A stretch of DNA of 64,000 nucleotides, from contig NC_134029.1 in assembly GCF_964204645.1 (NCBI RefSeq), forward strand, positions 184,001 through 248,000, in the 5' to 3' direction. A program made the position numbers and the translations under genes. Each line of letters begins with the position of its first letter. Position 1 is the stretch's first letter. This document shows, piece by piece, positions 20,101 to 23,100 of the stretch. The DNA is from Tubulanus polymorphus (taxonomy: Eukaryota; Nemertea; Palaeonemertea; Tubulaniformes; Tubulanidae). The notes below the pieces were generated by a model, which had not been told where the DNA came from, searched no databases, and saw only the letters and a list, made by a program, of their open reading frames with translations.

Positions 20101-23100
20101 AACATCGGTTTTTGTGAAACTTACTGCGGCATGTAGTGAAACTAACTGTGGCATGTGTGTTTTTAACAGAGTAAACACCTAGAAACGGTCGTGGAAACGA
20201 AGGAAAGTTTATTAGATCAGATGCAACTGAGTCACGAGAGTCAAATTAATAAACTTGAATCACTGTCGAAAGAGAGAGAAAATTGTTGGCAGAAACAGAA
20301 AACTGAATTAGAGGATCATTATACACAGTTACTGACCGATATACATACCAGACAGAAGGTATAACACCTCCCTCCCTCACCTCTCACCTCCCTCACCTCT
20401 CACCTCCCTCACCTCTCACCTCCCTCACCTCTCACCTCCCTCACCTCTCACCTCCCTCACCTCCCAGAGGATCATTATACACAGTTACTGACCGATATAC
20501 ATACCAGACAGAAGGTATAACACCTCCCTCCCTCACCTCTCACCTCCCTCACCTCCCAGAGGATCATTATACACAGTTACTGACCGATATACATACCAGA
20601 CAGAAGGTATAACACCTCCCTCACCTCTCACCTCCCTCACCTCTCTCAACTCCCTCACCTCTCACCTCCCTCACCTCTCACCTCCCTCACCTCCCAGAGG
20701 ATCATTATACACAGTTACTGACCGATATACATACCAGACAGAAGGTATAACACCTCCCTCACCTCTCACCTCCCTCACCTCTCACCTCCCTCACCTCTCA
20801 CCTCCCTCACCTCTCACCTCCCTCACCTCCCAGAGGATCATTATACACAGTTACTGACCGATATACATACCAGACAGAAGGTATAACACCTCCCTCACCT
20901 CTCACCTCCCTCACCTCCCAGAGGATCATTATACACAGTTACTGACGGATATACATACCAGACAGAAGGTATAACACCTCCATCCCTCACCTCTCACCTC
21001 CCTCACCTCTCACCTCCCTCACCTCTCACCTCCCTCACCTCCCAGAGGATCATTATACACAGTTACTGACCGATATACATACCAGACAGAAGGTATAACA
21101 CCTCCCTCACCTCTCTCACCTCCTTCAACTCACAACTGTGGAAGTGGATGTAGAGGGATCAGTAATGATTGATGATTAATGTATTTGTAGAAGAGTCAAA
21201 CGATGGCTGATGAAGCGTGGGAGAGAATGAAACAAACCGGTTCAGTTCAACAAGCTTTAGAATCAGAGTGCTCAAAACTACGCCAATTACTCAATGATAA
21301 TCACGAACAGAAATCTGGATTATTATCGGTTACCGCGCTGATAATCGGTGCATTTTACCCCCTCTACCAGCGATATAACGCACTAACCGCTCAATGTCAG
21401 TTCCTACAAGGTCAAGTATCGCAGGGTGAATTATTGAAGTATCAAGCGAGAGTATTAACGGATACCATATCGGCGTCGCTGGATACCGAGGGTGATCTGA
21501 TACTGCCGTTTCACCGCGCGATAGGTCGCAGTAAATACAGCGCGATATTGAGATTCCGTCGAGCGGTGATCGCTGTCCTAGCCGCAAATAGACTCATTTA
21601 CTTCAGCAACAACACGACGAGATTATTCACTTCTTACGATATGACAACAGGATTCAATTCTATCAACATCGTCAGCGGTTCATCGAATAAAACACACATC
21701 AAATTGAAAGGTAAAAGAAAATAGTTTTGTAAGAGGATCATTTATTGAATGGATAGGGGTCTAAGGGGGATCAGTGGTCATGATAGATTACCTCGGAATC
21801 CAGTGGGGTCAGAAATAGTTGACCAATTTTACCAATGATGAAACACTCTTTAATCCAGTGTTGTAATAATGATGTAAAACCCCATAATAAGAAGTCAGAA
21901 ATGTTTTCTAGAGCTAGCTGTAGTTTATTCAACGTTCCACCCGGTATAGGTTGATATGTATTCCTGAAGATGACTATATGGGATATAATTAAAATGTTGA
22001 ATGTTCTTTCATGCTTAATTTAGGATTTTATGTAATTGACCAATTCTAATCGGCGGCACTATTTAGTGAACATATTTCATGAACAACAGCCCACCTCGCT
22101 TGACACTGCAGCAGCCCACTCCCTCCCTTGACACTGCAGCCCCCCTCCTCCCTCCCTTGACACTGCAGCCCTCCTCCTCCCTCCCTTCACACTGCAGCCC
22201 CCCTCCTCCCTCCTCGACGCTGTGATTATATTATCTCGCGTACTTTTATTTGTAAAGTAATTTCATTGATTTGCAGGAGTGGGAGTTGGCGGTGAAGGGA
22301 AATCGTCACAGAGTAGAGCTGGTTATGATACAGTATTAGAATGGTTATCCAGTCCACAGTTGTTACAAACACTGATGAATTCAACGAATGAACTTCAGGA
22401 TCTCGTTAATACCGTTCGTAAAGATGGTAAGAATCAAAATCCTCCGATCGAGTTCCTCCTTTAGACTGAATTAGAAATTATTTGGTTCATTTCCAAATAT
22501 TTGACCCAATAGAGTCTGATTTTGTGAGTTAACTCTGAACTCGGGACCCAGTTCTACAGTTGTGAGTTAGAGTTAACTCTGAACTCGGGATCCAGTTCCA
22601 CAGTTGTGAGTTAAGAGTTAACTCTGAACTCAGCATCCAGTTCCACGGTTGTGAGTCAAGAGTTTACTCTGAACTCAGGATCCAGTTCCACAGTTGTGAG
22701 TCAAGAGTTAACTCTGAACTCAAGATACAGTTCCACAGTTGTGAGTTAGAGTTAACTGTGAACTCAGGATCCAGTTCCACAGTTGTGAGTTAAGAGTTAA
22801 CTCTGAACTCAGCATCCAGTTCCACGGTTGTGAGTCAAGAGTTTACTCTGAACTCAGGATCCAGTTCCACAGTTGTGAGTCAAGAGTTAACTCTGAACTC
22901 AAGATACAGTTCCACAGTTGTGAGTTAGAGTTAACTGTGAACTCAGGATCCAGTTCCACAGTTGTGAGTTAGAGTTAACTGTGAACTCAGGATCCAGTTC
23001 CACAGTTGTAAGAGTTTACTCTGAGTTACTCTATTGATAATTCTGTCTTACAGCTGTTGAACTGTGGTGTAATAATGATATATTTGTTTGTTTTTTAGGA

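Follow-up and report, generated by a model that had tools for sequence, protein, structure and literature searches.

Intron 17 of a predicted coiled-coil gene carries a tandem array in which the end of the preceding exon is repeated six times, each time together with its splice donor and a CT-rich intronic tract. With a probability of roughly 0.8, we consider this array to be a minisatellite of the "mirage" type known from amphioxus genes; the first donor would then be spliced to the native acceptor, and the copies are predicted to be inert. The window, to which coordinates refer unless another sequence is given, is the whole stretch of 64,000 nucleotides that was analysed.

An exon end copied within intron 17

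The splice sites of the host gene were set by eye, from splice signals and reading frame, and the chain of exons leaves its 3' end beyond 29055 incomplete. The 26 predicted exons join stop-free over 1444 codons, and the copies are not needed for this reading-frame chain. The shortest predicted intron measures 72 nt and the shortest exon 39 nt. One neighbouring gene is of the subtilase type and lies on the minus strand; another, on the plus strand, is that of a sodium:neurotransmitter symporter. The original prediction had called the gene CCDC171, a name that we could not confirm: the host-gene protein matched no Pfam family at E ≤ 0.1, and exon 18 matched no PDB entry at E ≤ 1. The features of the locus are as follows.

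14160..29055, + strand: host gene, coiled-coil; 26 predicted exons, 1444 codons open to 29055
20170..20358, + strand: exon 17 of the frame-consistent 26-exon chain; 189 nt, both ends in phase 0; the copies derive from its final 49 nt
20359..21190, + strand: intron 17, 832 nt long and containing CT-rich tracts; putative native acceptor TTTGTAG before 21191
21191..21710, + strand: exon 18, phase 0; expected splice partner of 20358 in the frame-consistent chain
20310..20358, + strand: copy 1, the end of exon 17 itself; its donor GTATAA at 20359 is the native one
20466..20514, + strand: copy 2, identical over 49 nt, then donor-like GTATAA
20558..20606, + strand: copy 3, identical over 49 nt, then donor-like GTATAA
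20696..20744, + strand: copy 4, identical over 49 nt, then donor-like GTATAA
20832..20880, + strand: copy 5, identical over 49 nt, then donor-like GTATAA
20920..20968, + strand: copy 6, one C>G at 20947, then donor-like GTATAA
21044..21092, + strand: copy 7, identical over 49 nt, then donor-like GTATAA and the native intron end

Counting the native one, seven tandem copies begin at exon base 20310 or its equivalent, include the donor and reach into the CT tract; each consists of AGAGGATC...AGACAGAAG (49 nt) followed by GTATAACA. The six extra copies with the native donor GTATAA that had been described within a CT-rich array are thus present, and their start positions could be located; the copied exon end is, however, 49 nt long and not 47. 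As the exon-intron border at 20358, placed from splice signals and frame, lies inside the repeat unit (49 nt of exon, the donor and the CT tract), the seven copies bear out the proposed tandem duplication across an exon border. The units are also as similar as had been stated, with a single substitution in 294 copied exonic bases: the C>G at 20947 turns ACC into ACG, both encoding Thr, and is synonymous in the frame of the gene. Judging by this one substitution the array looks recent, and in this single assembly the near-identity of the copies is compatible with recent origin as well as with homogenisation.

The 10 bases ahead of all six extra copies are the same, CTCACCTCCC. Between copies, the CT tracts consist mostly of CCTCCCTCA alternating with CCTCTCA, together 16 bp, in differing numbers. 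The copy-to-copy spacings (156, 92, 138, 136, 88 and 124) are unequal because the CT part varies in length, mostly in steps of one 16-bp unit or more. A CCCAG had been noted before each copy; its CCC does come from the tract, but its AG is exon sequence, namely the third base of a Leu codon and the first base of a Glu codon. The acceptor AG of the copies is exon sequence that duplication put beside a CT tract.

A 65-base query against the whole 267.8-Mb assembly found these seven places and none other among the best candidates scored, with E values of 1.4e-20 to 2.2e-19 for the extra copies; since the search scores the best candidates only, the array sequence occurs in at least seven places. 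All seven places among these best candidates were local, and on this basis a chance match or a dispersed repeat was rejected. In a protein search with exons 17-18 the host gene was the sole match at E ≤ 0.001, and this search yielded neither a paralogue nor an array-free second allele that could serve as an empty-site control.

Repeats elsewhere in the gene and the genome

Tandem arrays are common in this DNA. They cover 23.8% of 264 kb; in the host gene they account for 5846 of the 10562 bases in introns and for 97 of the 4334 bases in exons. With the host gene as its training set, a codon model marked 154 coding-like segments in the 264 kb, including 23 of the 26 training exons. An initial repeat filter listed three of these segments, without the target, and was widened, whereupon 10 of the 154 were flagged. 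When these 10 were read by eye, only the segment at 20167-20316 had a repeat that clearly takes exon sequence over a splice border. In five others (25330, 107038, 119169, 145845 and 173602) the array begins within the intron, past the eye-placed donor, and the array at 195732 was likewise read as intronic; those at 92045, 121433 and 240426 we judged by eye to be repeats or non-coding sequence scored as coding. Aligning junctions with their flanks at the 52 predicted splice sites of the host gene gave one border-spanning repeat, the one at exon 17, and sixteen homeobox loci (among 38 homeobox matches) showed no repeats in or near an exon.

Several arrays in the host gene, among them those at +6, +17 and +25, start soon after a donor and contain no exon sequence. 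Similarly, intronic minisatellites begin about 4-20 bases past eye-placed donors in L032 (from about 2150 onward), in L029 (from about 5324 onward) and at window position 15790, sparing the exon. A 72-bp array of about 33 copies (25545-27964) takes up most of the intron that follows exon 25327-25527. Its period is a multiple of three, with long open frames on both strands, and its units contain TTTCTTTCTGTAG, an acceptor-like motif. The units of two further arrays, at 4665-5121 and 44136-44452, appear related by eye (GAGCTGGTCACCTGATAT...CACTAACCCTAACCCTAGCTT), which suggests a dispersed element forming tandem arrays. A GCA-type triplet array of about 76 units with 85% match lies at 56863-57091, and a 379-aa open frame at 61752-62891 resembles a mobile-element protein by eye, with no Pfam match at E ≤ 0.01.

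Ten homeobox exons lie on one strand over about 317 kb at G000 C6:5318228-5634747, apparently a Hox cluster. The run includes homeodomains followed by AKLNGP and others followed by QAIKELN or QQIKELN, which in spiralians (lophotrochozoans) are signatures of Lox5 and of Lox2/Lox4, respectively. These signatures suggest a spiralian host, and amphioxus was judged unlikely; COX1, tried as a taxonomic marker, gave no match.

Splice signals of the copies and their possible use

The native donor of exon 17 scores 8.6, compared to a gene median of 7.1, and the copied donors equal it. Of the 664 GTs inside the 25 introns, the six copied donors alone reach the native median; they are 6 of the 17 internal GTs of intron 17, and none of the 647 GTs in the remaining 24 introns does so. 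A background of 210/29928 would lead one to expect 4.5 in these 24 introns; the deficit is only suggestive, because the background sample also contains real donors. In silico, use of the distal donor at any copy leads to an immediate stop, reading GTA TAA. A hairpin with a 5-bp stem, AUACC/GGUAU, can form over the donor, with -4.2 kcal/mol for the native 40 nt; its letters are present at all seven donors, the native one included. All 20 shuffles of 20300-21200 were more stable than the RNA of this region itself (z +2.9), and we therefore claim no structural role.

The acceptors of the copies are less convincing. In leave-one-out, base-specific models with pseudocounts of 1, 5, 10 and 20, built on 26 eye-placed sites from one gene, they score below all 26 native acceptors; the model with the lowest pseudocount was judged too extreme, and further models were added. 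The first AG of the copies is equalled or surpassed in score by 89-96% of all AGs across the window. When the tract was modelled as purines and pyrimidines only, the first AG equalled or exceeded 5-6 of the 26 native acceptors and the second AG 4 of 26, so that weak use of the copied acceptors is possible under this model. The putative native acceptor before 28936 is also poor, at -14.3 compared to -21.7 for the copies. Native tracts contain 58% T and 5% C, while 11 of the 17 nucleotides in the tract of the copies are C. Of a further 112 candidate acceptors, located near coding-like segments, 27 have a tract of at least 60% pyrimidines, and none of these 27 reaches 50% C (mean 23%, highest 47%); these tracts are less T-rich, and many may not belong to real acceptors. 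The acceptor trinucleotides at the 26 predicted native sites are CAG (15), TAG (10) and AAG (1). The second AG of each copy, a GAG, a trinucleotide absent from this set, scores below the first AG in each model tried, and a CAG sits 2 nt upstream of it.

As had been predicted, a 47-nt insert from the first AG shifts the frame and a 45-nt insert from the second AG adds 15 in-frame residues. The former reaches TGA at the eighth codon; with the latter, the frame stays open for one to six copies. Since the better, first AG thus leads to a stop at the eighth codon, the proposal that the copies serve as micro-exons is weakened. With a predicted 39-nt exon in the host gene, 45-47 nt is not too short in itself. 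Two of the five gaps between extra copies measure 45 and 41 nt (47 and 43 nt to the second AG), below the 72-nt minimum intron; this counts solely against splicing of all copies in series, which is unlikely. From the original proposal of micro-exons or decoy donors, we retain the decoy donors, on the strength of the GT counts, while acceptor scores, stop codon and short gaps leave little in favour of micro-exons.

The mirage-type reading accommodates these observations. Splicing would join the first, native donor to the native acceptor (21190), with the copies departing in the lariat. The copied donors would act as decoys; their tolerance would be explained by the normal exon distance of the first donor and by the poor acceptors of the copies. 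A distal donor or the first AG of a copy would bring in a premature stop in silico and, probably, transcript decay. Against complete inertness, six strong donors with pyrimidine tracts could see some use. If U1 binding at the copies diverted splicing distally or slowed intron removal, leading to read-through into GTA TAA, the decoys would be effective, a reading that overlaps the preferred one and differs from it in degree. The identity of the six copied donors with the native one and the lack of comparable GTs in the other introns agree with it, but regular splicing is undisturbed in the published lancelet cases, as far as the available text goes (PMC3087553, PMC3902484), and the hairpin, alike over all seven donors, has no discriminating value; we regard effective decoys as unlikely.

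Inclusion of a copy as an exon would take one of two forms. Poison exons would use the CAG of a copy, and decay of transcripts with a 47-nt insert would lower expression, perhaps in a regulated manner. CAG is the commonest native acceptor trinucleotide and the insert does meet its stop, but the C-rich tract differs from native tracts and the array is recent-looking, which makes this form quite improbable. Splicing to the second AG would instead add 15 residues, or multiples thereof, to the coiled coil, with a length varying between alleles. The open frame, the native donor on each copy and the synonymous nature of the sole substitution are compatible with such micro-exons; the GAG acceptor, the competing CAG just upstream and the two gaps below the minimum intron make them very improbable. 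We give just as little credence to a nested mirage that forms exons, in which 45-nt in-frame cassettes would be included at a low, allele-dependent rate and create 15-residue length steps between individuals or cells. Tandem arrays are difficult to assemble, yet that the array is an assembly artefact is hardly credible in view of its six differing spacings, one private substitution and tract variants among copies, and of its location on a 24.9 Mb contig in a 77-contig assembly.

Comparison with known border-spanning repeats

Mirages are tandem repeats over the exon-intron border of amphioxus genes, described, in the portions of the two reports available to us, for Adh3, TnC and the globins BflGb6 and BflGb9, with a similar case in PGBD5 (PMC3087553, PMC3902484). 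According to the same portions, they leave regular splicing undisturbed in the globins and Adh3 (PMC3087553) and in Adh and TnC (PMC3902484). The signals of the globin mirages could yield alternative transcripts (PMC3087553); cryptic use of mirage signals is considered possible, and the repeats could seed new introns (PMC3087553, PMC3902484). The intron 17 array resembles these mirages, many of which carry AG/GT signals, in its border-spanning tandem repeats, and it shares with BflGb9 the duplicated 3' boundary of an exon. It differs in that its host, judging by the Hox signatures, belongs to a different animal group, and in that it is nested, its intronic part being itself a 16-bp CT minisatellite, a feature that the accessible text of PMC3087553 and PMC3902484 does not mention. 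Its exonic copies are near-identical, whereas the units of BflGb6 are given as 81-100% identical and the PGBD5 repeats as imperfect. Compared to the published mirages, the array is known from the sequence of one assembly alone.

Two other systems are related, again as described in the available parts of the sources. In the intron gain of a potato RdRp gene (PMC4974935, citing the Rogers model), the duplication likewise carries exon sequence together with splice signals, and the duplication in intron 17 could, in the same way, seed a new intron or exon; in potato, however, a new intron was detected, while here the copies lie inside an existing one. Human internal tandem repeats (PMC2812944) are likewise minisatellites able to activate cryptic splice sites, but they sit in exons of recently duplicated genes. 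Mirage minisatellites, which in PMC3087553 and PMC3902484 concern lancelet genes, may extend beyond lancelets, although an earlier non-lancelet case is possible. The array bears on the material from which new exons and introns may arise, and its seven identical donors in one intron constitute a natural experiment on how the spliceosome chooses the first of equal sites.
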